Below are positions 7,549 to 30,640 of a stretch of DNA of 64,000 nt, in pieces (the stretch's first letter is position 1; the number at the start of each line of letters is the position of its first letter). The position numbers and the translations under genes are program-made. The notes beneath the pieces were generated by a model. The model searched no databases. It saw only the letters and a program-made list of their open reading frames with translations, and had not been told where the DNA came from. This DNA is from Levilactobacillus zymae (lineage in GTDB: Bacteria; Bacillota; Bacilli; Lactobacillales; Lactobacillaceae): NCBI RefSeq assembly GCF_032190635.1, contig NZ_JAVLAS010000001.1, positions 434,001 through 498,000 on the forward strand, in the 5' to 3' direction.

Positions 7549-8649
7549 TTACTTCAACTGAAAGTACGTGGTCAAGAAGGGCCGTGTCTTCTGGTAGACC
7601 TGGGTTTGTGAATAGGTCTTCTTTCCGTCGCCCCAGATAGAAATGGCTGAGCCGATGTTCTTAGTGCTGGTGGCTAAATTCTGATGGCTGGTCTTGTCCC
7701 AGACCTGGACCGTCCAGTTACGGGTCAGATCTTGTTGCCAATAGGTCACGTTGGCGGGGACGAAGGTCTTGGGCCGGGTGATGACGTAGAGGTACCAAAG
7801 GTTGGCGTTGATGGTTTGAAACCCGGCCGCGTTGAGCTGGGGCAACGTCGCCCGAATCTGCCGGTGGGTTTGGATCAGCTTGGCGTCGTTGGTTTCCCCG
7901 TCGTAGCTCCAGTAGGTGACCAGAATATTGTGGTCGAGCTTGGGTAAATCAGCGCGCATCAACCCGTCGTTCCACATACTGGTCTTGAGCCCCTTGCGGT
8001 TGAGGTAGCGGTTTAACCCGTTGGTATAGCTGACCGCCGTGGGCTGGGTGGCCTTGGTGGTACTGCTGTACTCGTCGCCACCGATGGCCAGGTGTTGGCC
8101 CCGGTAGAGGAGGCCGGTGTATTCACCCAATAGTGATTTGACGAAGCGCTGGGTTTGACTGACGTGGAGGTTCAGTTCGTTGCCGTGGGCGATTTGCTGC
8201 GCCAGCTTGCGGTTCGCCTTGCTCGACGTTTTGAGGAGCTTGATCAGCGCGGTCGTGTGCCCGGGCGTATCAATCTCCGGGATCACTTCGACGTGGCGTT
8301 GGTGCCCGTAGACCACTAAGGCCCGCAACTGTTTCTTGCTCAAGAAGGCTAGCTTGGTTTTCCGGTTGTAGTAGACGTCGCCCTTCTTTTTCGCGGCCTT
8401 GACGGTCTGGCCGAGCTTAGCGCTTTCCACGCCGTAGCGGCTGTCGTCGGTCAGGTGGAGCTGTAAAAAGGTGCCGCCGCCCGCGTGAATCTCGCGAATA
8501 AATTTCTTGATGGTGGTCACGGAATAGTACTGCCGCGCGTTGTCCAGGATCAACCCCTTGGACTTAGTGGCGGCCTGAGCGGTCGGAACACCCAGACTAA
8601 GCGTGAGGGCTAGGGTGATGAGCCCCAGCCAAATGTGCCAATGACGCAT
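7549..8649 (-). CDS. Secreted glycoside hydrolase family 20 (beta-N-acetylhexosaminidase-like)
   Basis: 366 residues with a signal peptide (1-26, cut near AQAAT). It matches the GH20 catalytic barrel: LILDNARQYYS at the first strand, LQLHLTDDS (63-70), VEVIPEIDTPGHTTA (120-134) and the catalytic Asp-Glu pair in HLAIGGDEYSS (Asp192-Glu193), followed by the conserved Trp/Asn segments SMWNDGL and VTYWSYDG. The family releases terminal N-acetylglucosamine or N-acetylgalactosamine by substrate-assisted catalysis. There is no LPXTG or wall-binding repeat, so it is probably released. Substrates such as chitin oligomers, peptidoglycan fragments or host glycans are possible. It is monocistronic with start ATG after GAGGGGA. 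Confidence 0.9.
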   Translation of the reverse strand: MRHWHIWLGLITLALTLSLGVPTAQAATKSKGLILDNARQYYSVTTIKKFIREIHAGGGTFLQLHLTDDSRYGVESAKLGQTVKAAKKKGDVYYNRKTKLAFLSKKQLRALVVYGHQRHVEVIPEIDTPGHTTALIKLLKTSSKANRKLAQQIAHGNELNLHVSQTQRFVKSLLGEYTGLLYRGQHLAIGGDEYSSTTKATQPTAVSYTNGLNRYLNRKGLKTSMWNDGLMRADLPKLDHNILVTYWSYDGETNDAKLIQTHRQIRATLPQLNAAGFQTINANLWYLYVITRPKTFVPANVTYWQQDLTRNWTVQVWDKTSHQNLATSTKNIGSAISIWGDGKKTYSQTQVYQKTRPFLTTYFQLK

Positions 8650-8821
8650 TCCAATCCCCTCGTTTCATAGTGTTTACCATTAATATACGAGTTTCCAGGT
8701 GGTTTGACCACGCATTAGCTCACGGGACGCAAAAGTGGCCGGTTGTGGGATTAGAAACATCAGTGGCCTAGCGCCAAAACCGGCCCATCAGGTGTCATCT
8801 GACGGGCCGGTTTTAATGAAA

Positions 8822-9853
8822 TTATTTGACGATGCCCAGGTCGATCATGGACTGGGCCGTGGCGAGGATGGCGGTCTTGGCGGAGCGGGGGTGCCAGTTG
8901 AGCAGCGTCTGGGCCTTGTGGTTGCTGGTGCCGGCGTACTGACCCACGATGGACGCAATCATCCGCAGTTGCGGGTTGGCAACGGCCGCAGCTTTGACGG
9001 CTAAGTTGGGGATGGTCTTGGTCGGTAAGTTGGCCGCGTATTGCGGGAAGGCGTCCCGTAAAAGATTGGCGACGTCGAGCATCGATAAGGTCTCGCCGGT
9101 CGTGGCCAGGAAACGTTGCCCGTTGGCCTGGGGACTAGTCATGGCCAGCAGGTGCAGGCTGGCGACGTCGCGCACGTCCACGTAACCGGAATCGACGTGC
9201 GGGACGGCCTTAACCTGACCTTCGAGGAGCTGTTGAATTTGCACGTTGGAATGCGAGTACTTGGCCGATAAGACGGGACCCATCACGCCGACCGGGTTCA
9301 CGGCGGCGAGTTCGAGGCCCTGGCCTTCTTCGCGGATGAATTGCCAAGCGGCTCGTTCGGCTAACGTCTTGGATTTTTGGTAGGGGTGAATGTTCTTGGC
9401 GGACAGGTCGGACCAGTCTTCTTCGGTATAGGGGGTGGTCCGGTGCGGGTGGCCGGCGAAAATGGCACCGTAGGCCGAGGTCAGCACCACGCGCTTGACC
9501 CCGGCGTCGCGGGCGGCCCGAAGTACGCGGCGGACGCCGTCGACGGCCGGGCGAATCATCTCGTCTTCATGCTTGAAATTCAGCTTTGGGGTGGGCGAGG
9601 CCACGTGAATCGCGTAGGTGGCACCGGCCATGACCTGGTCCCAGTTCGCGTCACTACCCAGGTCGGCGGCAACGACGTCGAGGTTGCTGAAGTCGGTGAT
9701 GCCGCCGTTGGTCAGCATGTCTTCGATAACGGCACGTTTGGCCAGGTTCCGGACCGTGGCCCGGACCGCGTAACCTTGTTGCAGGAGTTGTAAGATGATG
9801 TGAATGGCGATGAAGCCGCTGCCGCCGGTAACGCTCACGAGTTGTTTTTGTAT
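8822..9853 (-). CDS. NAD(P)-dependent epimerase / dihydroflavonol reductase-like protein, apparent AUA start
   Basis: Rossmann-fold extended SDR of about 343 residues. Seen: VTGGSGFIAIHIILQLLQQG (nucleotide-binding G-x-x-G-x-x-A type), VVLTSAYGAIFAGHP and the active-site Y-x-x-x-K in PYQKSKTLAE. These place it with dihydroflavonol-4-reductase/cinnamoyl-CoA reductase-like enzymes, which reduce aldehydes or ketones; substrate unknown. The start is odd. The ribosome site TTGGAGGAATT is followed four bases later by ATA (9853-9851), exactly where at least four other genes in this window with the same site (at 30536, 34793, 37476 and 45494) have ATG. No ATG, GTG or TTG lies at that spacing. It is divergent from a TetR gene that probably controls it. 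Confidence 0.85.
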   Translation of the reverse strand: MQKQLVSVTGGSGFIAIHIILQLLQQGYAVRATVRNLAKRAVIEDMLTNGGITDFSNLDVVAADLGSDANWDQVMAGATYAIHVASPTPKLNFKHEDEMIRPAVDGVRRVLRAARDAGVKRVVLTSAYGAIFAGHPHRTTPYTEEDWSDLSAKNIHPYQKSKTLAERAAWQFIREEGQGLELAAVNPVGVMGPVLSAKYSHSNVQIQQLLEGQVKAVPHVDSGYVDVRDVASLHLLAMTSPQANGQRFLATTGETLSMLDVANLLRDAFPQYAANLPTKTIPNLAVKAAAVANPQLRMIASIVGQYAGTSNHKAQTLLNWHPRSAKTAILATAQSMIDLGIVK

Positions 9854-9896
9854 GAAAAATTCCTCCAATTTTCAGTTAAATCGAATTTAGTTTTGC

Positions 9897-9919
9897 GTGA
9901 CACTTGTAACATCTGTGAC
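9897..9919. promoter_or_regulatory. Probable TetR operator between the epimerase and tetR genes
   Basis: A 23-bp imperfect palindrome of the form GTnACA nn TGTnACA nn TGTnAC lies in the divergent intergenic space, just before a TATACA -10 (9925-9930) for the tetR gene. The half CATCTGTGAC recurs exactly at 9964-9973. Position and symmetry suit binding by the adjacent TetR protein (inference). Confidence 0.55.
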
Positions 9920-9990
9920 CAGACTATACAATGGACTTAGCCCGAAAACAAGCGACTACCGGGCATCTGTGACAGAACGGAGGAATTGTT

Positions 9991-10548
9991 ATGGCAGCGA
10001 CCCAACATGCTCAACAACTGAAACAGGACTCGCAAACGTACCTGACCACGGCGCTTTTGCAGTTATTGGAAACGCACGACTTGAACACCATCAGCGTCAC
10101 CCAGGTGGTCAAACGCGCGGGGGTCAGTCGAATGGCCTTTTACCGCAACTTTGAAACGCTCGACGATCTCTTAGCGGCGTACTTTCGGCCCAAACTGACC
10201 GCGCGCTTCAACGACGTGGTCAACGGCGTTCCACAAGCCGAAAAACTAGCGGCGATGGGCCAATTTTTCCAGGAGTTGGCGCCGACCCTGCAGCTGGCCA
10301 CCCAACGGGGATTTGAGGAGATCATTCGGCAGGTGTTTAACCAGAATATGGAGGCTTTTTACCAGACCACTTTGGCGGAGACGCTCCTAACGCCGGTGCA
10401 GCGGCGCTACTGGACTAAGTTCATGAGTGCCGGGGTCTACGCGATTTGGCGCAAGTGGCTGTTGACCGGTCAACGCGAGTCGTTAACCACGATCCACGGG
10501 TTGATTGCGGGGTTTCAGACGCAGACTATGGCGAGTCTACGGGCCTAG
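9991..10548 (+). CDS. TetR family transcriptional regulator
   Basis: 185 residues. The N-terminal DNA-binding domain is typical: LTTALLQLLETHDLNTISVTQVVKRAGVSRMAFYRNFETLDDLLAAYF, with the recognition helix around VSRMAFYRNF. The rest is the variable ligand-binding and dimer domain. Start ATG follows CGGAGGAATTGTT. It is divergent from the epimerase at 8822-9853, with a palindromic operator between them, so self-regulation and control of the epimerase are the likely roles. The ligand is unknown. An ABC exporter operon follows on the same strand about 105 bp later with its own promoter. Confidence 0.9.
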   Translation: MAATQHAQQLKQDSQTYLTTALLQLLETHDLNTISVTQVVKRAGVSRMAFYRNFETLDDLLAAYFRPKLTARFNDVVNGVPQAEKLAAMGQFFQELAPTLQLATQRGFEEIIRQVFNQNMEAFYQTTLAETLLTPVQRRYWTKFMSAGVYAIWRKWLLTGQRESLTTIHGLIAGFQTQTMASLRA

Positions 10549-10606
10549 GAGCGGTCCCCGGTTACTGGTCGGCAATGATATCGGCCGGCAGGTTTACGGG
10601 GGAACG

Positions 10607-10615
10607 TGCTAAAAT
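10607..10615 (+). promoter_or_regulatory. Extended -10 promoter for the ABC/FtsX operon
   Basis: TGCTAAAAT is an extended -10 about 40 bp upstream of the ATPase start; the ribosome site AAAGGAGG lies at 10638-10645. Confidence 0.5.
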
Positions 10616-10653
10616 GAATCTATGTAACCGGATACACAAAAGGAGGTAGGCAC

Positions 10654-11355
10654 ATGGCCTATATCGAAGTCCAACACGCGACCCGCGAGTTTCGCAGCGG
10701 CGACCAGACCACGGTGGCCAACCGCGACATCTCGTTTACCGTGGACCAGGGCGCCGTGGTGACCATTCTGGGACCCAGCGGCGCCGGGAAATCCACGCTA
10801 CTCAACATTCTTGGGGGGATGGACTCACCCACCAGCGGTCGCGTCTTGATCGACGGGGTGGACATCGCCCAGTTTTCCCCAAAACAACTCACGACCTACC
10901 GGCGCCAAGCCGTCGGGTTCGTGTTTCAATTCTATAATCTAATTCCCAACCTGACCGCCCGCGAGAACGTCGAACTGGCCTCCCAGATCACCCAGGACGC
11001 CAGAGACGTCGACGACACGCTGGCGTTGGTGGGGCTCCAGGACCGCGCGCAAAACTTTCCCGCCCAGTTGTCTGGTGGGGAGCAACAACGCGTGGCCATC
11101 GCCCGCGCCGTCGCCAAGAACCCGAAACTCTTGCTGTGCGACGAACCCACGGGGGCGCTAGATTACCAGACCGGTAAGCAGGTCTTGCAGGTGATCCAAG
11201 ACGCCGCTAAACAGACCGCGACCACGGTGATCATCGTGACCCACAACAGCGCCATCGCGCAGATGGGTGACCTGGTGATTCGAATCAACGACGCGCAGAT
11301 TCAGTCGATCACGCCCAACGCGCACCCGACGCCGCTGGCCGAGATTGAATGGTAG
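10654..11355 (+). CDS. ABC transporter ATP-binding protein (MacB/LolD type)
   Basis: 233-residue ATPase. Walker A is GPSGAGKST at 40-48, the signature is [16 protein letters not shown] and Walker [29 protein letters not shown] around the Q loop is typical of the MacB/LolD/SalX group. It is encoded 10 bp upstream of an FtsX-family permease and surely works with it. Such pairs export or extract peptides, lipoproteins or antimicrobial compounds, or transmit mechanical force; which applies here is not visible. The coding sequence is GC-rich. No two-component system is adjacent, unlike the bacitracin-sensing relatives. Confidence 0.93.
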
Positions 11356-11365
11356 GTGATGGAGA

Positions 11366-13939
11366 ATGACACCAGCCTATTTTAAAACCATTTTGCGGGA
11401 AATTTGGCGCTCGAAGGCCCGTTTCTGCTCGATTCTGATTATTATTTTTCTGGGCGTGGCCTTCTACACCGGTATCCGGGCGACTGGACCGGACATGTCC
11501 CAAGCCGCCACCCGCTACTACCGGACTCAGCGCCTGGCGACCAACAGCGTGCAATCGACCCTGGGCCTGACCACCGCCGACCTAAAAGCCGTGAACCAAC
11601 ACGCCGGGGTGACCGCGCAGGCCGTACGGTACCTGGATCTCACCCAACTGAACAATAACCGGGTGGTGCGGGTGACCGAGTTACCGACCACCCAGAAACT
11701 CGACCGCTTGACGGTGACTAGCGGGCGCCTGCCACGGCGGGCCAACGAAATCGTGTTGGACGCCCAGGCCCGGCGCCTGCAGCCGCAACTTAAGGTGGGC
11801 GGAACTTACCGTATCGCCAGCACGGCCGCTCAGAACCGCCAGTTGACCCGGCGGACGTTTACCATCGTGGGGTTCGTCAATTCGCCGCGCTACGTGGAAA
11901 ACGTGGACCGGGGCGTCACCACGGTGGGCAAGGGGACCCTGGATTACCTGGCCTACGTGCGGCCGGGCACGTTGAAGTCGCGGGTGATTACCCGCTTGGA
12001 CGTCAACTTCCAGAACCTGCGCCACGTCACGCCGTATTCGGCGCGCTATAAAAAGCTTAACCGGGCCAACACGCAGCGGCTAAAGACCTGGTTGGCCCCG
12101 CAAGCCCGCCAACGCCAGGGCCAGCTACAAACGCAGGCCACCGCGAAATTAGCGCCGCTGAAACGGCAGGTGGCCGCGTTGAGCCAACAACTGCCGGCGA
12201 CCAGCCCGGTTCTCACCAAACTAACGGCCAAGCTCCGGGCCGCTCAGGCGCAGGTCACCGCGATTCCGCGGCCGACCTACCTGTACACGGACCGGACCGA
12301 TAATCCGGGATACACCGAATATCACGAAAACACGCAACGGGTGGTGGCCTTAGCGACCGTGTTCCCGCTATTCTTCATCGCGATTGCCGCGTTGATCTGT
12401 CTGACCACCATGACCCGGATGGTCGAGGAACTGCGCCTACAAATGGGAACGCTCAAGGCCCTGGGGTACGGCAACGCCGCGGTCGGCAGCGAGTTCATGC
12501 TGTACGGTGGTTTGGCCGCATTGTTGGGAACCGGTTTGGGCGTGCTGTTTGGCGTCAACTTCTTCCCCCGGTTCATCGCCCAGGCGTACGGCAGTATGTA
12601 CAATCTGCCCGCGATTCAGGTCCAGTACCTCTGGGGCGACATTGGGGTCGCCCTGGCAATTGCGCTGGCCTGCACGTTGGGTAGCGCGTGGGTGGTCCTG
12701 CGCGTCGACCTGCGCAGCCTGCCGACGCAACTTCTCCAGCCCAAGGCGCCCAAGGCCGGCAAGACCCTCTGGCTGGAACGCTGGACCGGTCTATGGCGGC
12801 GGTTGAGTTTTAACCACAAGATCACGCTACGCAACCTCTTACGCTACAAGCAACGCCTGTTCATGACGGTGCTGGGTATCGCTGGCTGCATGGCCATGAT
12901 GATCACCGGTTTTGGCCTGAAGGACTCCATCGGCGACATCAGCACCAAGCAGTTCAACGACCTGTGGCACTACGACGCCATCGTGACCCGGAGCGGGGCG
13001 GAAACGGCTGGTCAGCGACAAGCCCTGCGTCAACCGGCCAACTACCGGCGCAGCCTGACGCTGAAATCCAGTCAGGTGACGGTCAAGCAGGCCGGGGTAG
13101 CGGAACAAACCGTCACCCTGGGGGTCCCGCAGACGCCACGCCAGCTGAACCGGTTCGTGACCTTACGCGACCGGCAAACGCAGCGCAACTACCGCTTGAC
13201 CGATCACGGCGCCATCATCGACGAGAAGTTGGCCAAGCTGACCCACGTGAAGGTGGGCGACACCCTGGCCTTGAAGGCGGCGGGGCAGACCACCCGGCAC
13301 GTGAAGGTCGCCGCCATCGCCGAAAACTATATCAACCACTTCGTGTACCTGAGTCCGCGTTACTACCGCCAGGTGTTTCATACCGCACCGACCTATAATA
13401 GTAATTTCGTGCAACTCAACCATTCTGGTGAAGCGGCCGGCAACGCCTACGCCAACCGACTGTTGAAACAGGCGGGCATAGTCAACGTGACGTTGATGCA
13501 GACCGAACGCCAGACCAATTTCAAGATGTTCGACAGTATGAATCTCGTGGTCCTGATCTTCGTGATCTCGGCGGGCGCCTTGGCGCTGGTGGTGCTCTAC
13601 AACCTGACCAACATCAACGTATCCGAGCGGATTCGCGAGTTGTCGACCATCAAGGTGCTGGGCTTTTACGACAACGAAGTCACCCTCTACATCTTCAGAG
13701 AAAACCTGATTCTAACGGTGCTGGGGATTCTGGTGGGCTGCCTGCTGGGGGATGGGCTCCACGCCTACATTCTCCAAACGGCGGAAACCAACGCGTTAAT
13801 GTTCTCGCCGGGGATTCATCCGGTCAGCTATCTGTACGCGGCGGCGTTGACCCTGGTCTTTAGCCTGCTCGTGATGGGCATCATGCACGTCAAGCTGAAG
13901 CAGGTCAACATGTTAGACGCGTTAAAATCAGTCGATTAA
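11366..13939 (+). CDS. ABC transporter permease, FtsX/MacB family, large form
   Basis: 857 residues. Layout: N-terminal helix (ARFCSILIIIFLGVAFYTGI), a large extracellular domain (about 45-310), three helices (about 320-455), a cytoplasmic linker, a second N-terminal-like helix (FMTVLGIAGCMAMMITGFGL, about 500), a second extracellular domain, and three final helices (about 715-850). This is the duplicated FtsX layout of the large YknZ-unlike permeases common in lactobacilli. The extracellular part includes a Gln/Ala-rich coiled-coil-like stretch (about 245-305). It forms a two-gene operon with the ATPase at 10654. The substrate is unknown. Confidence 0.9.
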   Translation: MTPAYFKTILREIWRSKARFCSILIIIFLGVAFYTGIRATGPDMSQAATRYYRTQRLATNSVQSTLGLTTADLKAVNQHAGVTAQAVRYLDLTQLNNNRVVRVTELPTTQKLDRLTVTSGRLPRRANEIVLDAQARRLQPQLKVGGTYRIASTAAQNRQLTRRTFTIVGFVNSPRYVENVDRGVTTVGKGTLDYLAYVRPGTLKSRVITRLDVNFQNLRHVTPYSARYKKLNRANTQRLKTWLAPQARQRQGQLQTQATAKLAPLKRQVAALSQQLPATSPVLTKLTAKLRAAQAQVTAIPRPTYLYTDRTDNPGYTEYHENTQRVVALATVFPLFFIAIAALICLTTMTRMVEELRLQMGTLKALGYGNAAVGSEFMLYGGLAALLGTGLGVLFGVNFFPRFIAQAYGSMYNLPAIQVQYLWGDIGVALAIALACTLGSAWVVLRVDLRSLPTQLLQPKAPKAGKTLWLERWTGLWRRLSFNHKITLRNLLRYKQRLFMTVLGIAGCMAMMITGFGLKDSIGDISTKQFNDLWHYDAIVTRSGAETAGQRQALRQPANYRRSLTLKSSQVTVKQAGVAEQTVTLGVPQTPRQLNRFVTLRDRQTQRNYRLTDHGAIIDEKLAKLTHVKVGDTLALKAAGQTTRHVKVAAIAENYINHFVYLSPRYYRQVFHTAPTYNSNFVQLNHSGEAAGNAYANRLLKQAGIVNVTLMQTERQTNFKMFDSMNLVVLIFVISAGALALVVLYNLTNINVSERIRELSTIKVLGFYDNEVTLYIFRENLILTVLGILVGCLLGDGLHAYILQTAETNALMFSPGIHPVSYLYAAALTLVFSLLVMGIMHVKLKQVNMLDALKSVD

Positions 13940-22320: not shown

Positions 22321-22349
22321 AAAAATGACCTCCTGTGTAGGTGCGGTGG

Positions 22350-22656
22350 GACGAAAAAAACGCCCTTAGCAAGAATTGCTAAGGACGTGACTGAACGTGT
22401 ACCACCTTAATTTCTGACCACCTCACGATGATCAGCTCGACAAGTACCACCACCGCCTGCGCAGACCGGTGATGAGACTTCATTGCTGTAATGGGCGCAT
22501 TCCCAGTGACCACTTCGGCTGAGCCGTCGCGGCCACGACTTGTAGATTACTTTCGTGTGGTGTGGTGATGGCCCCGTTGCACTGACCCGGAGCTCCCTGA
22601 GCATCGTGACACCGACTACTCTTCTACGCATTGTCGTTAAAAATTATTTAACTATG
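22350..22656 (-). ncRNA. T-box riboswitch upstream of brnQ
   Basis: Read leftward: a leader of about 300 nt with a Stem I that closes with GTAGA / TCTAC; the specifier-side strand contains CACGAAAGTAATCTAC. Then come the T-box AAGGTGGTACACG (22408-22396) and a terminator ACGTCCTTAGCAA...TTGCTAAGGGCG followed by T7 (22387-22354). The bases of the T-box would pair to form the antiterminator. The most plausible specifier is GTA (Val), followed by A, in the loop strand; ATC (Ile) is the alternative. Both fit a branched-chain carrier. Confidence 0.9.
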
Positions 22657-22662
22657 CTGTTT

Positions 22663-22690
22663 ATCATAGTCGGATTTTTCGAGAAGTCAA
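22663..22690 (-). promoter_or_regulatory. Promoter of the brnQ leader
   Basis: -35 TTGACT (22690-22685), 16-bp spacer, -10 TATGAT (22668-22663) on the minus strand. Confidence 0.75.
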
Positions 22691-22841
22691 TAGGGAATAT
22701 GAGGAAATTCTAATTTTAATTAGGAGCGACAATTGCCGAATCAACCTATCTTTTAGACTGGAATCGCTGGTATAACAATGATTTGGTGATGGCGGTTGAC
22801 TACGGCTAAACTAGGGAAATACGATATCTGTTAATTTGATG

Positions 22842-22878
22842 AGAAAATGCGATCTGCCCAGCGGCGGATCGCATTTGG
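22842..22878 (-). terminator. Terminator after the 3-hydroxyacyl-CoA dehydrogenase gene
   Basis: Stem AAATGCGATCTGCC / GGCGGATCGCATTT type; on the minus strand it ends in TTTTCTC. It lies about 115 bp past the stop codon. Confidence 0.7.
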
Positions 22879-22992
22879 TGCAAGTTAATCGTAAATGGTT
22901 GGGTGGCGGGAGACCACGGCGAGCATGACCGCCACCCCTCAACGCATGGAGGGACTGATTGGTACGAGGATTAATGGCGGAGAAAAATTATT

Positions 22993-23937
22993 TTAATGAG
23001 ACTGATCAGCCTTCAGTAAGTTCAGCAGGTCGCGGTCGCGTTGGGCCACGACCTCTTGGCCAGCCGTCCCGGTCCAGTTGTAGAAACCCTGGCCGGTTTT
23101 GAGCCCCAGCTGATGAGCCGCGACCTTCTTGGCTAGCGCGGGGTCGGTCCCGGTATCGTTGGCTAAGTCGGCGTAGAGGTAGGCACTGATATTGTTGAAC
23201 ACGTCTAGGCCACCGAGATCGGCACTGGCCACGGGACCCACCAGACTCCAACGTCGGCCCAGACTGTACTTGATGATGTCGTCGACCGCTTCGGGCGTGG
23301 CGATGCCGTCATCGATGATGTGCAGAGCTTCGCGCAAGACGGCCAGTTGAATCCGGTTGCCCACGAAGCCCAGTGCTTCCTTTTGCAACGGAACCGCGTG
23401 TTTGCCGATGTGGGTCATTAGCGCCACGGTGGTGGTGACGGTGGCCGCGTCAGTCTGTTCGCCAGGCACCACCTCGACCAGTGGCATCAGTTGCGCGGGG
23501 TTCCAGAAGTGGGCGACCACGAAGCGTTCGGGATGCGTCAACGTCTGTTGAATGGCGGTGGGGCTGAGGCCGGAGGTGTTGGTGGCGAGGATGGTCTGAT
23601 CGGAAACGTATTTTTCAGCTTCTTGCCAAACCAGGCGCTTAACGTCTAATTTTTCCACAACGGATTCAATTACAAAGTCGGCGGCAGTCAGTGCCTCTTG
23701 ATAATTGGTAGTGGGGTGAATTCTGCTCAAAATAGTCTGGGGGGTGTCGGATAGAATTCCCGCTTGTTCAAACGTTTCAAGGTCATGTTTGATGCCAGCC
23801 ATTCCGTTGTTTAAGGCGTCGTCGCTGGTGTCTAATAAGTTGACGGTGTAGCCATGCATGGCGAATTGTAATGCAGTGGCATGACCCATAGTACCAGCAC
23901 CGATATTGCCAATAACTTTAAATTTTGATAAGTCCAT
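22993..23937 (-). CDS. 3-hydroxyacyl-CoA dehydrogenase family protein
   Basis: 314 residues. NAD-binding Rossmann domain: VIGNIGAGTMGHATALQFA (G-x-G-x-M-G) at 8-26; catalytic His and Asn in VVAHFWNPAQLMPLVEV; GFVGNRIQLAVLREALHI at the domain hinge, then the helical dimer domain. Known members oxidise 3-hydroxyacyl-CoA (for example 3-hydroxybutyryl-CoA) or, in the crystallin-like branch, free hydroxy acids. It follows the MFS carrier gene by 24 bp and forms an operon with it, downstream of a cre site. No thiolase, crotonase or CoA ligase is nearby, so a complete beta-oxidation route is not encoded here; the substrate may be a free or differently activated hydroxy acid. Confidence 0.9.
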   Translation of the reverse strand: MDLSKFKVIGNIGAGTMGHATALQFAMHGYTVNLLDTSDDALNNGMAGIKHDLETFEQAGILSDTPQTILSRIHPTTNYQEALTAADFVIESVVEKLDVKRLVWQEAEKYVSDQTILATNTSGLSPTAIQQTLTHPERFVVAHFWNPAQLMPLVEVVPGEQTDAATVTTTVALMTHIGKHAVPLQKEALGFVGNRIQLAVLREALHIIDDGIATPEAVDDIIKYSLGRRWSLVGPVASADLGGLDVFNNISAYLYADLANDTGTDPALAKKVAAHQLGLKTGQGFYNWTGTAGQEVVAQRDRDLLNLLKADQSH

Positions 23938-23961
23938 GATGTAATAGATCCTTTCTGTTCT

Positions 23962-25212
23962 TTAAGCAACAGCTTTTTTGGCTGATTTTTGCTTTAAATA
24001 GTGATGGGAGAGTGTGATTGAGATGACCACAGCTGCGCCACCTAGGGCGTACAGAACACCATTAGTCGTGATAGGTAGACTATATGAGCCGGTGATATCG
24101 AAGATCTTACCATCCACCGAAACGGCGATGGCGGTGGCAAAATTACCAAACATAGAAATGATAGACAGGATATTGTTATAATCCTTGGGACCAAATTGTT
24201 TGCGAATAAAGTAGGGCAACGAAACTAGCATAATTCCTTGGCCCAACCCCAAAACGAAACCGGAACCAACTAATAAGGAGGTGTCCCTGAAAATCAGTAA
24301 GCTCAACCAACCAACAATGCCAAAAACAGCGTACATAATAATGACGACTTGATTATTGAAGTGGTCCAGGAACCATCCGATGCTGACCTTACCAGCGGCG
24401 GCCCCTAGCATAATCCCGGAAACGACGGTTGCACCGATCGTTAAGGGAAGATGGATGCTTACAATATAGGGGGAAACGTGTTGAACAAGACCGGCGACCC
24501 ATTGTAAGGCAATCATAGCGAAGGTGATGAGGTAAAACATCGGCGTCTTAAGGGCTTGTTTGAATGACAAGCCTTGCCAGTCTGCCTCGCTAGTTTCGGT
24601 GGTTGTCACTTCTTGGTAGCCAAAGGGTTTAGTTTGTCCAGTGGGCTTGTATCGAATGACGAAGAGCGTAAACGGTAATATGGCAATTAAGGTGATGGCT
24701 CCCTCAACAATCCAACCAGAGCGCCAACCAAAATTAGTGATAACAGAACTAACGATGGGATTAAATAATGATCCACCAATTGCTGACAATCCTAAAGCAA
24801 TGCCTAAAACGGTTCCGAGATACTTTTGAAACCAATTTCCTAGCAAGACGGGAATGGACAGAGTTAAGGCGAAGGGCTGCATAATACCAATGATGGTCCA
24901 AACAACGTAAAACTGAACGATGCTGTGTGCGAAGCCCAAACTAATAAAACCTAAACCAATGATGGTAAAGCAGATGGTTAGTAATAAGCGGATATTAATC
25001 TTTTCCATGAGTTTACCGGCAAAAAGTAACGTAATGGCACAAGCGATATTCTGGAATGTGACCATAAGGGATACCCCAGCACGAGTAATCCCGAAGGAAG
25101 CGCTAACGGGTTCGAAGAATAGCCCAATAGTATCAACGACCATCCCAAAACCAACTAATGAGATAACACAGGTACTTAGAAAGATCCACCAGCCATAATG
25201 AATTTTATGCAC
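23962..25212 (-). CDS. MFS transporter, oxalate/formate or monocarboxylate type
   Basis: 416 residues with 12 hydrophobic helices. The opening HYGWWIFLSTCVISLVGFGM and LGNWFQKYLGTVLGIALGLSAIG (the W-F-x-K...G-x-A-x-G loop) are typical of the OFA/monocarboxylate porter branch of the MFS, which carries small organic acids. Start GTG at 25212 follows AGGAGATGATGAATC. First gene of an operon with the 3-hydroxyacyl-CoA dehydrogenase. A cre site (25246-25259) lies just upstream, so glucose repression is likely. The DNA is AT-richer than flanking genes. Confidence 0.88.
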   Translation of the reverse strand: MHKIHYGWWIFLSTCVISLVGFGMVVDTIGLFFEPVSASFGITRAGVSLMVTFQNIACAITLLFAGKLMEKINIRLLLTICFTIIGLGFISLGFAHSIVQFYVVWTIIGIMQPFALTLSIPVLLGNWFQKYLGTVLGIALGLSAIGGSLFNPIVSSVITNFGWRSGWIVEGAITLIAILPFTLFVIRYKPTGQTKPFGYQEVTTTETSEADWQGLSFKQALKTPMFYLITFAMIALQWVAGLVQHVSPYIVSIHLPLTIGATVVSGIMLGAAAGKVSIGWFLDHFNNQVVIIMYAVFGIVGWLSLLIFRDTSLLVGSGFVLGLGQGIMLVSLPYFIRKQFGPKDYNNILSIISMFGNFATAIAVSVDGKIFDITGSYSLPITTNGVLYALGGAAVVISITLSHHYLKQKSAKKAVA

Positions 25213-25245
25213 GATTCATCATCTCCTAAATAGAGTATCAATAAC

Positions 25246-25259
25246 GGTAAGCGCTTACT
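25246..25259. promoter_or_regulatory. cre site (CcpA) upstream of the MFS/dehydrogenase operon
   Basis: GGTAAGCGCTTACT contains the perfect palindrome GTAAGCGCTTAC, matching the cre consensus except for its outermost bases. It lies 34 bp upstream of the MFS start. Confidence 0.75.
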
Positions 25260-25444
25260 TATTTCTGTACAATCAAAAGCATAGCGGGTCTATTAGGAAA
25301 AGACAATATGTGAAAAAAATATCAAAATGTAAAACTGATAGTTGTTTAGGAAAATATCTGAAGAATATTGGTTGAGAGTAGCATTTATTATTGCTTTTTA
25401 TATGATTTTTATTCATATAAAATATTAGGAAATAATATAATGAC

Positions 25445-26326
25445 TTACGCTTGGGAACTAACCGCCTGATCAAAAATTCGACGAACCTGCGCTACTAGTG
25501 GATCTGTGTTTTTCTTGGACACTGCTGATAAGAGTTCCCAACTTAATTGAGGAAAGGGAACGACACTGAGGTCGTTGATTTGGTAACCTTTAAGGATGTT
25601 ACGCGGCAGCACGGTAACTAGCGGTTGAGTTCGACAAGCATTCAATAGAAAGCTCTCAGATGATGAGGACATGACGATATTGGGCGCTTCTTTTTCGTAG
25701 CCAAAGAGTGTATATAATTGCTCACGAATCGTGAACGAACGGTTTAATAAAATTAAGGGTAATCTGGAAAGTGCCGCTATGGTAATGTCGGGGGTGACTT
25801 TAATCAGCTTGGGGTTGAAGACAAGGGCACCACTATCGCGAATTAAGCTTTTCTTTTCCAGGGAATCGTACTTTAAGGGAGCGACGACGTAGGCAAGGTC
25901 GACTTTCTCTAAGAGTAATTTCTGTTGAAGGCTTTCACCGCCGTCGTCATCAATTTCAATTCGAATATCCGGGTGCTCTAGAATGAACTCTGGAAGGATT
26001 TGGGCGAAATGGGAGACCAGTACGGCCGAAGCAATTCCCAGGCGAATTTTACCTGAAAATTGTTGTCGCTGGTGAACGTTAGTGATCATGTGGTTGTAGT
26101 CACGGACCACCTTTTTGGCGTCACGATAGAATCGTTTGCCTTCGTTAGTTAGCCCAATAAGTCGTTTACCATGGCGAGCAAATAATTTAACTTGTTCGGT
26201 TTCCTCAAAGTTAAGCACAGATTTACTCATGGTTGATTGGGAAACGTGGACTTTCTCTGCAGCTAGGCTGATGTTGAAGTCGGAAGAAACAATTTCGATA
26301 AAATAAATAAGCTGGACGATGTTCAA
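25445..26326 (-). CDS. LysR family transcriptional regulator
   Basis: 293 residues. N-terminal winged helix: LIYFIEIVSSDFNISLAAEKVHVSQSTMSKSVLNFEE (recognition helix VSQSTMSKSVLNFE), followed by the periplasmic-binding-like effector domain (GKIRLGIASAVLVSHFAQIL onward). Divergent from the AtuA operon and directly upstream of the MFS operon. A 28-bp inverted repeat lies just before its start, in the shared control region. It probably senses the substrate or an intermediate of this cluster. Effector unknown. Confidence 0.92.
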   Translation of the reverse strand: MNIVQLIYFIEIVSSDFNISLAAEKVHVSQSTMSKSVLNFEETEQVKLFARHGKRLIGLTNEGKRFYRDAKKVVRDYNHMITNVHQRQQFSGKIRLGIASAVLVSHFAQILPEFILEHPDIRIEIDDDGGESLQQKLLLEKVDLAYVVAPLKYDSLEKKSLIRDSGALVFNPKLIKVTPDITIAALSRLPLILLNRSFTIREQLYTLFGYEKEAPNIVMSSSSESFLLNACRTQPLVTVLPRNILKGYQINDLSVVPFPQLSWELLSAVSKKNTDPLVAQVRRIFDQAVSSQA

Positions 26327-26352
26327 TAGAGTGACCTCCTCGTATAGCTTTA

Positions 26353-26380
26353 ATTCTGATTTTATATGAATTATCAGAAT
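26353..26380. promoter_or_regulatory. LysR-type operator between lysR and the AtuA operon
   Basis: ATTCTGAT and ATCAGAAT form perfect 8-bp arms separated by 12 bp (TTTATATGAATT). It is 26 bp upstream of the lysR start; long spaced dyads of this kind are typical LysR recognition sites. Confidence 0.65.
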
Positions 26381-26474
26381 ATGTAAACTACTCGGAGCAT
26401 TGTAATGATAATATATTCACAAAGATAAAACGATAACGACTTTAAAATTTTCATTTTGGTAAAATAATTGGGCA

Positions 26475-26504
26475 TTGTAATTTGTTGGGAGCGCTTTTTA
26501 TAAT
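26475..26504 (+). promoter_or_regulatory. Promoter of the AtuA operon with a cre-like sequence in the spacer
   Basis: -35 TTGTAA (26475-26480), 18-bp spacer, -10 TATAAT (26499-26504). The spacer holds TTGGGAGCGCTTTTT (26485-26499), which resembles a cre core (GAGCGCTTT) though its ends deviate. Confidence 0.6.
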
Positions 26505-26545
26505 GGCACCAGAAACGCGAATTGAAATTGTAGGAGGTCAAACCC

Positions 26546-27886
26546 ATGAAAAAGATTCGAATAGGTTCTGGTGCCGGCTATGCAGATGATCGGATTGAAC
26601 CGGCGATTGATTTAATTAATCGCGGAAATCTTGATTATATTGGCTTCGAATGCTTAGCGGAACGAACGATTGCCATTGCTCAAAATCAAAAGCAGGCGGA
26701 TCCAACCAAAGGTTACAATGACTTGTTAGAATATAGGTTTAGTAAAATCTTACCGGCCATTAAAGCACATCCCACTAAGGTCATCACGAATATGGGCGCT
26801 GCGAACCCCCAAGCAGCTACCGCCAAGGTTGTGGAGATGGCGCAAAAGGCGGGATTGTCGCATCTAAAAGTGGCGACGGTAACGGGCGATGATGTAACGC
26901 ATAAGATTAGTCAATTCGGACAACAACCGATGATGGAAAATCACCAAGCGTTATCGACGTTGAACCGACACGTTATTTCTGCCAATGCTTATCTGGGGGC
27001 TCAGCCAATTGTCGAAGCGCTAGACCAGGGTGCTGACATTGTTATCACGGGGCGGGTAGCCGATCCGTCATTATTTATTGCTCCCTTAGTCCACGAATTT
27101 GGGTGGTCGTTTGAGGATTATGATAAGTTAGGCAAAGGAACCTTACTGGGGCATTTGCTGGAATGTGCGGGACAAGTTAGCGGTGGCTATTTTGCCGATC
27201 CGGGCTATAAGGATGTCGACAACTTGTGGGAATTAGGATTTCCGTACGCAGATGTTCAAGCTGATGGCGATATTGTCTTACATAAATTGCCAAATACTGG
27301 TGGTTTGTTGAACGAGGACACCGTCAAGGAACAGCTAATTTATGAAATTCAAGATCCGACGAAGTACTATACGCCAGACGTTGTTGCTGACTTTTCCAAC
27401 GTTGAGGTCCACGCGGTTACAAGTGGTATTCATGTTTCTGGAGCGACCGGGACGGCTAAGACCAAAAAGCTAAAGGTTAGTGTGGGTTATGAAGATGGGT
27501 ATATCACAGAAGGTGGGATTAATTACGGTGGCCACAATGCCTTTAACAAGGCAAAATTAGCGAATGAAATTGTCCAAAAGCGTTTGGAATTATTAAAAAT
27601 TCCCGTCGATGCCTTTCAGGCGGATTACATTGGCGTCGATAGTTTGTATCATGGGGTACTACCAGCACCAGCGCAAATTAGCGAAGTTCGAGCGAGAATT
27701 GCGGCCCGAACCAGTACAGCTGCTGCAGCTCACGAAATTGTCCGTGAGGGGAAGTCCCTCTATACAAATGGCCCATCAGCTGGTGGTGGCGTCCGTACGA
27801 TTACGCAAAAAATCGTGGCAATTGCTTCGATTACAATTCCGGAAGACGAAACGCAGCCGCAAATTAACTATACGGAGGTAAACTGA
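26546..27886 (+). CDS. AtuA-family (DUF1446, PF07287-type) protein, N-terminal domain only
   Basis: 446 residues, start ATG after GTAGGAGGTCAAACCC. Diagnostic motifs: IRIGSGAGYADDRIEPAIDL at the start, YIGFECLAERTIAIAQ, VITNMGAANPQAATAK, ADIVITGRVADPSLF and GHLLECAGQVSGGYFADPG. The family is named for AtuA of the Pseudomonas acyclic-terpene (citronellol) pathway, where the enzyme role is unsettled. In that protein this domain is fused to a C-terminal module; here the module is the next gene. It starts an operon of two genes divergent from lysR. Lactobacilli are not known to break down terpenes, so the true substrate is open; its neighbours suggest an imported hydroxy- or oxo-acid. Confidence 0.88.
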   Translation: MKKIRIGSGAGYADDRIEPAIDLINRGNLDYIGFECLAERTIAIAQNQKQADPTKGYNDLLEYRFSKILPAIKAHPTKVITNMGAANPQAATAKVVEMAQKAGLSHLKVATVTGDDVTHKISQFGQQPMMENHQALSTLNRHVISANAYLGAQPIVEALDQGADIVITGRVADPSLFIAPLVHEFGWSFEDYDKLGKGTLLGHLLECAGQVSGGYFADPGYKDVDNLWELGFPYADVQADGDIVLHKLPNTGGLLNEDTVKEQLIYEIQDPTKYYTPDVVADFSNVEVHAVTSGIHVSGATGTAKTKKLKVSVGYEDGYITEGGINYGGHNAFNKAKLANEIVQKRLELLKIPVDAFQADYIGVDSLYHGVLPAPAQISEVRARIAARTSTAAAAHEIVREGKSLYTNGPSAGGGVRTITQKIVAIASITIPEDETQPQINYTEVN

Positions 27887-27887
27887 A

Positions 27888-28196
27888 ATGAAACTTTATG
27901 ACATTGCACATTCCAGAACGGGTGATAAGGGGAACACGTCCACGATTTCGTTAATTCCGTATCGGGCAGAAGATTTTGCGTTAATTAAAAAATATGTGAC
28001 TGAGGATAGTGTGACTAAATGGTTTCAGAAGTTAGGGGCAATTAACGTCACCCGATACGAATTTCATAAGGTTCCAGCACTTAACTTTGTCATCGAAAAT
28101 GCTTTAGGCGGTGGTGTTACGCACTCCTTGAACATTGATCGTCATGGTAAATCGTACAGTAGTGCTCTGTTGGAAATGACCATTCCAGATAAATAA
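27888..28196 (+). CDS. AtuA-like ferredoxin-fold protein (the C-terminal domain of AtuA as a separate gene)
   Basis: 102 residues; the ATG is one base past the stop codon of the AtuA gene, with ribosome site GGAGG inside its end, so translation is coupled. Sequence hallmarks: KLYDIAHSRTGDKGNTSTIS at the N-terminus (the RTGDKGN motif), KVPALNFVIENALGGGVTHS and LNIDRHGKSYSSALLEM. These match the short C-terminal module of AtuA-type proteins (a small alpha/beta fold). It probably binds the larger protein to make one enzyme. A bidirectional terminator follows. Confidence 0.88.
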   Translation: MKLYDIAHSRTGDKGNTSTISLIPYRAEDFALIKKYVTEDSVTKWFQKLGAINVTRYEFHKVPALNFVIENALGGGVTHSLNIDRHGKSYSSALLEMTIPDK

Positions 28197-28198
28197 TA

Positions 28199-28238
28199 AA
28201 AATGACACTCTCGATTGGTGGTCGAGAGTGTCATTTTG
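28199..28238. terminator. Bidirectional terminator after the AtuA operon
   Basis: AAAATGACACTCTCGA / TCGAGAGTGTCATTTT, 16-bp stem with T runs both ways. Confidence 0.92.
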
Positions 28239-28277
28239 GTATGAATACTGAATAGTTTGAAACAATGTTCTTAGGGT

Positions 28278-29306: not shown

Positions 29307-30536
29307 TTAACGAGGCGTTGGCGCTAAACGGCGCAGGGCGGGGATGGTCAGCATGACGGTCAGGCTGAAGAGGTACAGCAGAGACAGGAAGCCCATAACC
29401 ACCAGTAAGCTGTAGTGGTCCATCAAGAAGCCGATAACTACCGACGAGAAGCCCCCCACGGCGCGGCCCACGTTGACGATGAGGTTGTTGGCCGTTGAGC
29501 GAATCTCAGTGGGATACAGGCGGCTGATGACCGCGCCGTATCCGCCGAACATCCCGTTAGAAAAGAAGCCTAGTACGGCCCCGGCTAGGAGTAAGGTGAC
29601 CTGGTTGACCGCCAGGGTGATGCCGAAGACGGCGAGAGCGGCGGCGAACAGGAAAAGCCCGAACGCCCGCCGGGGACCGAAATAGTCCAGAATACTGCCG
29701 AAGGTCATCATTCCCAGACTCATGCCCAGAATCGTGGCGATCATCCAGACGGACGATCCGGCCACGCTGAGACCCAGTTTCTGTTGCATGATCGACGGCA
29801 ACCAGTTCATCAGACCGAAGTACCCGGCAATTTGCACGACCACCATCACCATGAGGGCCACCGTTTGGTAGGCTAAGCGTGGCGTGTGAAACAGGGCGCC
29901 TAAGCGAATGGGCTGGCGGTTGGGCCGCTGCCGGGCGCTGAGAAATTCGGCGCTTTCGTGGAGGTGCCGGCGGATAAAGTAGGTCAGACCCACGGGTACC
30001 AACCCAAAGACAAACAGGGCCTGCCAACCCAACGTCGGAATGATCAGCGCCGCGGCAATCGCGGCTAAGACGGCGCCCAGCTGCCCACCGATTGCGGCCA
30101 GCGAGGTCATCTTCCCAATCTTGTCGTGGTCAAAGCTTTCGGCAATCAGCGTGATCCCCACGCCATACTCGCCCCCGGCACCGACGCCGGCTAGGAAGCG
30201 GAAGATGTAGACGGCCGTGAGACTGTGGGCGAACGCCATGGCCGCCGTGGCCAGTGCGAAGATGAAGACGGTGTGCGAGAAGACCTTGACGCGGCCGAAC
30301 CGGTCGGCTAACAGGCCAAACAAAAGGCCACCCGCTAACATGCCCAGGTTGGTGACGGAAGCAATCAAGCCGGCTTGGGTCCCGCTGAGGTGTAAATCGG
30401 CGGTGATCGACGACAACGCGAAGGAGAGGAACATGACGTCCATGTTCTCCAAGGCGAAGCCGGCCGAGGTTGAGGCAATCGTCCATTTCTGGGGTGTTGT
30501 TAGCGCGTGGCGCGCAGGGGTAGTGCTAGTTTCCAT
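29307..30536 (-). CDS. MFS transporter, sugar/aromatic acid:H+ symporter type
   Basis: 409 residues; the ATG at 30536 lies four bases after TTGGAGGAATT. 12 hydrophobic helices. LENMDVMFLSFALSSI with the Asp in helix 1, GLLADRFGRVKVF (G-x-x-x-D-R-x-G-R-R/K loop) and FRFLAGVGAGGEYGVGITLI are typical of the metabolite:H+ / AAHS branch that imports organic and aromatic acids. The substrate is unknown. It is monocistronic. Confidence 0.88.
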   Translation of the reverse strand: METSTTPARHALTTPQKWTIASTSAGFALENMDVMFLSFALSSITADLHLSGTQAGLIASVTNLGMLAGGLLFGLLADRFGRVKVFSHTVFIFALATAAMAFAHSLTAVYIFRFLAGVGAGGEYGVGITLIAESFDHDKIGKMTSLAAIGGQLGAVLAAIAAALIIPTLGWQALFVFGLVPVGLTYFIRRHLHESAEFLSARQRPNRQPIRLGALFHTPRLAYQTVALMVMVVVQIAGYFGLMNWLPSIMQQKLGLSVAGSSVWMIATILGMSLGMMTFGSILDYFGPRRAFGLFLFAAALAVFGITLAVNQVTLLLAGAVLGFFSNGMFGGYGAVISRLYPTEIRSTANNLIVNVGRAVGGFSSVVIGFLMDHYSLLVVMGFLSLLYLFSLTVMLTIPALRRLAPTPR

Positions 30537-30640
30537 TGCGAATTCCTCCAAAATTGGTGCTCACGGGCACCGGTTATTTTGTTGCATTGCTCATTATTCT
30601 GCCACGAATCTTGCAGGGACGCAAGGGGAAAATTTACGGG

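Follow-up and report, generated by a model that had tools for sequence, protein, structure and literature searches.

We analysed a 64-kb stretch of the Levilactobacillus zymae genome (C1:434001-498000 of 2.89 Mb, hereafter the window), within which a catabolic cluster of five genes centred on an AtuA-family protein had been proposed, and a scan of open reading frames and Pfam domains found all five cassette genes intact at the place given in this original prediction. On the minus strand lie a gene of the 3-hydroxyacyl-coenzyme A (CoA) dehydrogenase type (22993..23937; PF02737, 201.9 bits, and PF00725, 72.9 bits), 24 nt upstream of it a major facilitator superfamily (MFS) carrier of the lactate/oxalate-formate type (23962..25212; PF07690, 128.9 bits), and a further 232 nt upstream a LysR-type regulator (25445..26326; PF00126 and PF03466). 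The carrier falls under every curated cut-off, its best NCBIfam model being the SfMCT L-lactate MFS transporter (110.5 bits against a cut-off of 320). Across 219 bp from the LysR gene, the plus strand divergently carries AtuA, the large subunit of a proposed lyase (26546..27886; PF07287, 497.6 bits, cut-off 22.8), and 1 nt behind it the gene of the small subunit, AtuA_ferredoxin (27888..28196; PF23544, 128.2 bits, cut-off 27), both scoring above the curated cut-offs of their families.

AtuA is a single-copy gene in this genome and was found in 3 of the 35 genus genomes and in 4 of 397 sampled across the family; PF07287 was detected in 12 of 395 sampled genomes of the order, where the best single-match score besides the window's own was 83 bits. 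The two order matches examined (L074 and L075) resemble CmlA, the large subunit of citramalate lyase, and the DUF4387 gene that adjoins in L074 has a 66% identical counterpart in L075. Linkage recurs elsewhere: the same five genes stand in the same order in L. fujinensis (L021) and L. enshiensis (L022). The outcome named beforehand as damaging, that the genes be unlinked in other genomes, thus did not materialize within the genus (three of three linked); another Lactobacillaceae genome (L086), whose AtuA is 64% identical, has neither the MFS nor the dehydrogenase gene beside it. Instead, a gene for a PepX/S15-type hydrolase, which might release the acid from an ester, comes after the AtuA pair and LysR at this locus (8194-11631), taking the position of the MFS and dehydrogenase genes. 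Locus L085 begins 130 bases before the end of the LysR gene, and the MFS and dehydrogenase region lies outside it. As regards the AtuA pair, the idea that the cassette is private to lactobacilli had to be dropped, because the pair occurs widely: 7999 candidate relatives were collected (all E <= 0.001), and those with names are nearly always called AtuA family or DUF1446.

Structure models of the two subunits (predicted local distance difference test scores of 93.4 for AtuA and 87.0 for the small subunit) had as their top PDB matches 9evf_A and 9evf_B, respectively, two chains of one enzyme complex, the citramalate lyase CmlAB. A profile search of PDB sequences likewise joined AtuA to CmlA (E 4.4e-7); it also returned 9qkx_A (E 0.0026, a 221-residue chain) and 2dka_A (E 0.034), which we took as chance or repeat matches. 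The 9evf complex contains ADP according to its structure title, and the solved relative holds pyruvate. The earlier view of a core conversion without precedent is therefore not supported, as the solved structure of a distant relative is that of citramalate lyase and AtuA is termed an acetate lyase in an excerpt of PMC4847356.

Taken together, we consider it fairly probable that the window holds a horizontally acquired, LysR-linked cassette in which the MFS carrier imports an acid, a two-subunit lyase of the CmlAB fold splits it and the dehydrogenase reduces the resulting oxo acid. The imported compound would be a free tertiary 3-hydroxy di- or tricarboxylic acid, which AtuA and the small subunit, as a putative C-C lyase, would cleave in a retro-aldol type reaction, yielding an oxo acid together with an acetyl unit; the Levilactobacillus dehydrogenase would then probably reduce the oxo acid, re-oxidising NADH. 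The acetyl unit would exit as acetate or, as we suspect, as acetyl phosphate; forming the latter would consume one ATP, repaid by acetate kinase, and would feed the heterofermentative acetyl-phosphate node. Under the scheme that we favour, 3-hydroxy-3-methylglutarate would yield acetoacetate and then 3-hydroxybutyrate. Lyase activity, acetyl phosphate, substrate and the role of the dehydrogenase are what we infer from these matches and from gene context. In the open-licence literature we found no paper joining AtuA with citramalate lyase or citramalate, none joining citramalate, acetate and pyruvate with DUF4387, none stating a link between AtuA and acetyl phosphate, and no bacterial 3-hydroxy-3-methylglutarate breakdown among titles; the titles seen for AtuA with Lactobacillus were off-topic, and recent citramalate lyase titles were unrelated to AtuA.

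To place these proteins among their relatives, 20 annotated plasmid loci were compared (17 of 18 at 47-52% identity, the unannotated L098 being left out, plus three at 41-42%); the gene tables of PLSDB are, as the database itself states, not complete, plasmid annotations replaced longest-reading-frame calls in L079-L084, and L065, L066, L068, L070 and L071 were excluded from context counts for wrong frames in G+C-rich loci. In a maximum-likelihood tree of 42 AtuA rows (fused proteins of L026, L184 and L185 cut to 460 residues; L024 and L025 not included), the window protein falls in a 29-row clade A (100/99) together with all 20 plasmid loci, four rows linked to phosphate acetyltransferase (PTA) genes fall in a 9-row clade B (99/96), and CmlA-like rows lie far outside. 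In all 20 loci the next gene after AtuA encodes a small protein of about 100-136 aa, and a transporter adjoins in 19 (citrate:proton symporter in 10, ABC in 4, TRAP-TAXI in 3, TctC-type binding protein in 2; none in L092), with regulators of the LysR (13) or GntR (2) type. Two of the loci are haloarchaeal and one belongs to Bacteroidota; the haloarchaeal ones (L094 and L095), from plasmids of two Haladaptatus, have the order CitMHS, AtuA, small gene, and the module has therefore crossed domains. A CitMHS gene also stands immediately upstream of AtuA in a Bacillota-side relative (L061, 54% identical). The recurring unit is thus a transporter plus a lyase, mostly without a further enzyme, as would be expected if a free acid were taken up and its products passed into central metabolism.

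The same pattern would suit a strict citramalate lyase, which would convert citramalate to pyruvate and an acetyl unit, with pyruvate going on to lactate and the dehydrogenase uninvolved. This alternative, which we regard as unlikely, draws on the name of the solved relative and the pyruvate it holds, and on the clade-A plasmid loci, most of which have no further enzyme, as would suit products that enter central metabolism; it leaves the linked dehydrogenase without a task, and in the tree a long distance separates the window protein from the CmlA-like group. Azospirillum thermophilum carries genes for 3-oxoacid CoA-transferase subunits A and B behind its AtuA pair instead, an arrangement that would fit acetoacetate as a product; its near relative Azospirillum sp. 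B510 has no such genes at the locus. In Microvirga ossetica, a 3-hydroxybutyrate-oligomer hydrolase gene is found two genes further on.

The form in which the acetyl unit leaves was examined through clade B. A PTA_PTB gene directly follows the AtuA pair in five alphaproteobacterial contigs (L023, L024, L025, L027 and L028; 296-317 bits), of which that of L028 (9730-10686) exceeds the NCBIfam phosphotransacetylase cut-off (314.3 against 310) and has as its nearest plasmid-collection matches (44%), where annotated, pta genes of ethanolamine clusters. In Rhodococcus gordoniae (L183 5955-7001), a PTA_PTB gene and the start of AtuA share 4 nt (268 bits; NCBIfam 263.5 bits, under the cut-off of 310) in a cluster that also has carboxylase, acyl-CoA dehydrogenase and hydratase genes. 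Rhodococcus branches before the alphaproteobacterial rows split from three fused, carboxylase-linked rows, and therefore two gains of PTA, or one gain and one loss, have to be assumed; the remaining five clade-B rows have no PTA beside AtuA in their annotated stretches. ADP-bound CmlA and the PTA-keeping part of clade B bracket the window protein, and the family may therefore phosphorylate a carboxylate and release acetyl phosphate. We tentatively suggest, with some doubt, that AtuA proteins including that of the window may be ATP-using C-C lyases that activate a free carboxylate as an acyl phosphate instead of a CoA or acyl-carrier thioester and give off acetyl phosphate; the lactobacillus acetate kinase would repay the ATP, and the oxo acid would serve as an external electron acceptor for the dehydrogenase. 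Alternatively, the lyase yields plain acetate, the ADP of 9evf is regulatory or incidental, and the PTA neighbours serve another step, a reading that we place just short of evenly balanced. It agrees with excerpts of PMC4847356 and PMC4097962, which speak of acetate, lost there from the ester of a tertiary hydroxy acid, and with gene context: no PTA adjoins AtuA in the window (five genes and three neighbours scanned), nor is one listed beside AtuA in the 20 clade-A loci. The ADP in the solved complex and the genes that touch or overlap the pair in the five contigs and in R. gordoniae are what it would have to explain away.

The cassette had also been described as an AT-rich block pointing to acquisition, and its guanine-plus-cytosine (G+C) content bears out the first part: 0.44 for MFS, 0.44 for LysR, 0.46 for AtuA and 0.40 for the small gene, against 0.56 for BrnQ, 0.57 for the DUF gene and 0.60 for the next MFS gene. 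Genomes G346 and G790 share the neighbourhood (its labels murI, brnQ, pyrF and pyrE are in part what we take the sequences to be) and lack the MFS, LysR, AtuA and small genes; the imported AT-rich segment absent from this locus spans at least 23593..28271. The flanks are 94.1% identical to G346 (4660 bp left, 3777 bp right). On the left, identity runs at 93.2% over 590 bp of the dehydrogenase gene up to 23592, drops from 23/25 to 9/25 at 23592/23593, and stays at 54-60% in four 90-column windows over the 5′ part. Because this break lies inside the dehydrogenase gene, the cassette arrived with part of it, and acquisition, which holds for the other four genes, extends only to the 5′ third of this one: the gene is a mosaic of a resident (22993-23592) and an imported portion (23593-23937, residues 1-115), with 96.5% protein identity to G346 in residues 116-314 and 59.1% in residues 1-115. 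Compared with eight cassette-bearing relatives, the N-terminal part is 55.7-73.0% identical (seven above the 59.1% of G346, P0174 below); G800, which has no cassette, reaches 67.0%. Most simply, import would have occurred by recombination inside the dehydrogenase gene, and an imported segment whose left edge falls within a gene illustrates one route by which such cassettes spread.

The right side is less sharply bounded. Homology to G346 resumes at 28271, beyond a strong terminator-like hairpin where the small-subunit and DUF genes converge (28199..28237; -25.6 kcal/mol, z -6.21, 0 of 200 shuffles equally good), which has its T tail on, and is listed for, the minus strand only. A sharp edge at 28271 was withdrawn: the DUF gene is 72-86% identical to G346 per 100 nt (51 of 66 in the last aligned columns) and about 94% identity returns only from 29331 onward, and therefore the replaced tract may end anywhere from 28238 to about 29330. 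The cassette of L. fujinensis and L. enshiensis sits at another place, between the dehydrogenase gene and, some genes on, a presumably hexosaminidase-like gene (our own reading of the sequence), which in G800 adjoins the dehydrogenase gene. The genes and their acquisition stand. Also at this locus, G346 has a gene of the pyridoxal-phosphate-dependent PALP family (144 bits; L156 6638-7927) between brnQ and the dehydrogenase gene, present by clustering in G790 as well and absent from the window (22321-22992). Past the DUF gene, G346 and G790 have two MFS paralogues (L156 10102-11334 and 11710-12960); the window has one (29307-30551), which matches the second G346 paralogue best.

We then asked whether the dehydrogenase is partner or bystander. 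Its domains, PF02737 and PF00725, are those of CoA-dependent L-3-hydroxyacyl-CoA dehydrogenase; the closest solved chain is the free-acid enzyme 4om8 (1e-50), followed by CoA enzymes (from 4.1e-44) and lambda-crystallin 3f3s (4.9e-41), the best NCBIfam models (224.9 and 222.7 bits, both under cut-off) are one CoA and one free-acid model, and several orthologues bear UniRef names starting 'L-gulona'. On these matches we lean towards a free-acid substrate. A profile search of the window genome found no PF01144 CoA-transferase, and therefore reduction would be a sensible fate for acetoacetate. In a heterofermenter, acetoacetate reduction would aid NADH re-oxidation. Among ten AtuA clusters (P0002-P0011), six have a dehydrogenase cluster with exactly equal longest-contig size, from which linkage was deduced, and for L. 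fujinensis in P0006 it was observed directly; P0002, P0008 and P0011 have no size match among the dehydrogenase clusters compared (P0123-P0174 of 120 listed). The linkage of dehydrogenase and AtuA thus predates the window genome, although, if the cassette spread by recombination at the dehydrogenase gene, the cases are not independent. Genome G841 has AtuA and no full dehydrogenase match, with two short pieces resembling the dehydrogenase C-terminus (residues 249-313, 54%; C104:7438-7632, in L178, and C98:99655-99849).

Several points weigh against our proposal. On the side of the dehydrogenase, orthologues of at least 68% identity occur in 19 of 35 genus genomes including that of the window, most of them without AtuA; in the loci seen, MFS, LysR and AtuA stand beside the gene only in L. 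fujinensis and L. enshiensis (neighbours in L165-L168 being not or only partly covered), and since it is mostly present without cassette genes beside it, the dehydrogenase has a role of its own. In the 20 plasmid loci and L086, AtuA has no such gene next to it, and recombination at the dehydrogenase gene could yield linkage without function. On the side of the lyase, identity is 17% to CmlA and 13% to CmlB, the small subunits are assigned to separate Pfam families (PF23544 and DUF4387), hhalign of the small subunit against DUF4387 gave nothing, a common fold does not prove a reaction, and an excerpt of PMC4097962 assigns the acetate-lyase step of Pseudomonas to LiuE, not AtuA. The dehydrogenase may be a mere resident neighbour and landing site for recombination, the functional import consisting of MFS, LysR, AtuA and the small subunit, which we hold to be a serious possibility without expecting it. 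Agreeing with this are its two thirds of resident sequence, its occurrence at this locus in G346 and G790 with none of the cassette genes, its wider spread in the genus (19 of 35 genomes against 3 of 35 for AtuA) and its absence from clade-A relatives elsewhere. Yet the donor too had a dehydrogenase gene adjoining the MFS gene, because its 5′ third travelled with the cassette, the gap between the two is just 24 nt, and the same pair recurs, perhaps not independently, elsewhere in L. fujinensis and L. enshiensis and by size in the six further contigs.

Breakdown of CoA esters of the terpene or leucine type, as in Pseudomonas, was set aside for lack of partner genes at the locus and seems very improbable. 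The family name and the carboxylase clusters of clade-B relatives would suggest it; the window protein sits in clade A, apart from those carboxylase-linked rows, and the cassette is, as foreseen, a LysR- and transporter-linked acid cassette without terpene-pathway carboxylase, CoA ligase or hydratase genes beside it. Carboxylase, hydratase and dehydrogenase partners of the Atu pathway were absent from the five genes and three neighbours scanned, the rest of the genome not being searched.

Control of the cassette differs from what had been envisaged, a single region with a LysR dyad and two catabolite-responsive element (cre) sites serving all five genes; there are instead two regions, 25213-25444 and 26327-26545. 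Each region carries a single copy of the motif TATATGAAT, which has no other occurrence in the 64 kb. In the region preceding the MFS gene, this copy belongs to a palindrome, TTTTATATGA-N7-TCATATAAAA (25396..25422; 10-bp arms, 3 of 300 shuffles as good), a possible LysR site of which L. fujinensis and L. enshiensis retain merely TTATGAAC-like letters. Between LysR and AtuA it lies in an inverted repeat that is imperfectly supported and not significant by itself (26353..26380; 8-bp arms, 28 of 300 shuffles as good), and this copy is retained in L021, L022 and L085. Both transcripts are likely under LysR control, from which we infer induction. A scan with a cre consensus gave a sole intergenic match in the cassette, with two mismatches (in 25213-25444), against a background of 103 such matches per window (1.6 per kb), and it is not found at the aligned place in L. 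fujinensis or L. enshiensis; the claim of two sites was not confirmed and catabolite repression is unproven. A perfect 12-bp palindrome, GTAAGCGCTTAC, at 25247 leaves room for a cre site there. Perfect matches to this cre consensus lie outside the cassette, at 10622 and 60877.

If our proposal is correct, the earlier 'unknown conversion' becomes a specific lyase reaction open to testing, and a large family of 7999 candidates gains a testable reaction type; for many of its members with a linked transporter, it would point to free hydroxy acids, not terpenes, as substrates. It would also mean thioester-free cleavage of tertiary hydroxy acids and one more acid-driven electron sink in lactobacilli.

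Among known systems, CmlAB (PDB 9erq and 9evf) is likewise made of two subunits, both matched in fold, and R170, D173, E206, C207, Y266 and E267 are common to AtuA and CmlA-like proteins in the profile alignment; it differs in its distant sequence and its DUF4387 partner, and the activity in the window is a prediction. Citrate lyase CitDEF would be alike in role, since it too cleaves an acid to give an oxo acid and an acetyl unit, and belongs to another protein family. The one CitF of this genome (PF04223, C1:151677-153071) lies outside the window, and citrate is a less likely purpose of the cassette because this normal CitF is present. The Atu pathway shares PF07287 and PF23544, although its protein is fused (615 aa in Thauera, in an excerpt of the literature) where the window has two genes, and it differs in clade and in the carboxylase, hydratase and ligase genes that the window lacks beside AtuA. 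Closest in layout are the transporter-linked AtuA modules of Proteobacteria, Bacteroidota, haloarchaea and Clostridium-side Bacillota, which likewise combine LysR, a transporter, AtuA and the small gene; they carry CitMHS, TRAP, ABC or TctC transporters, whereas the window has an MFS carrier with a dehydrogenase gene behind it.

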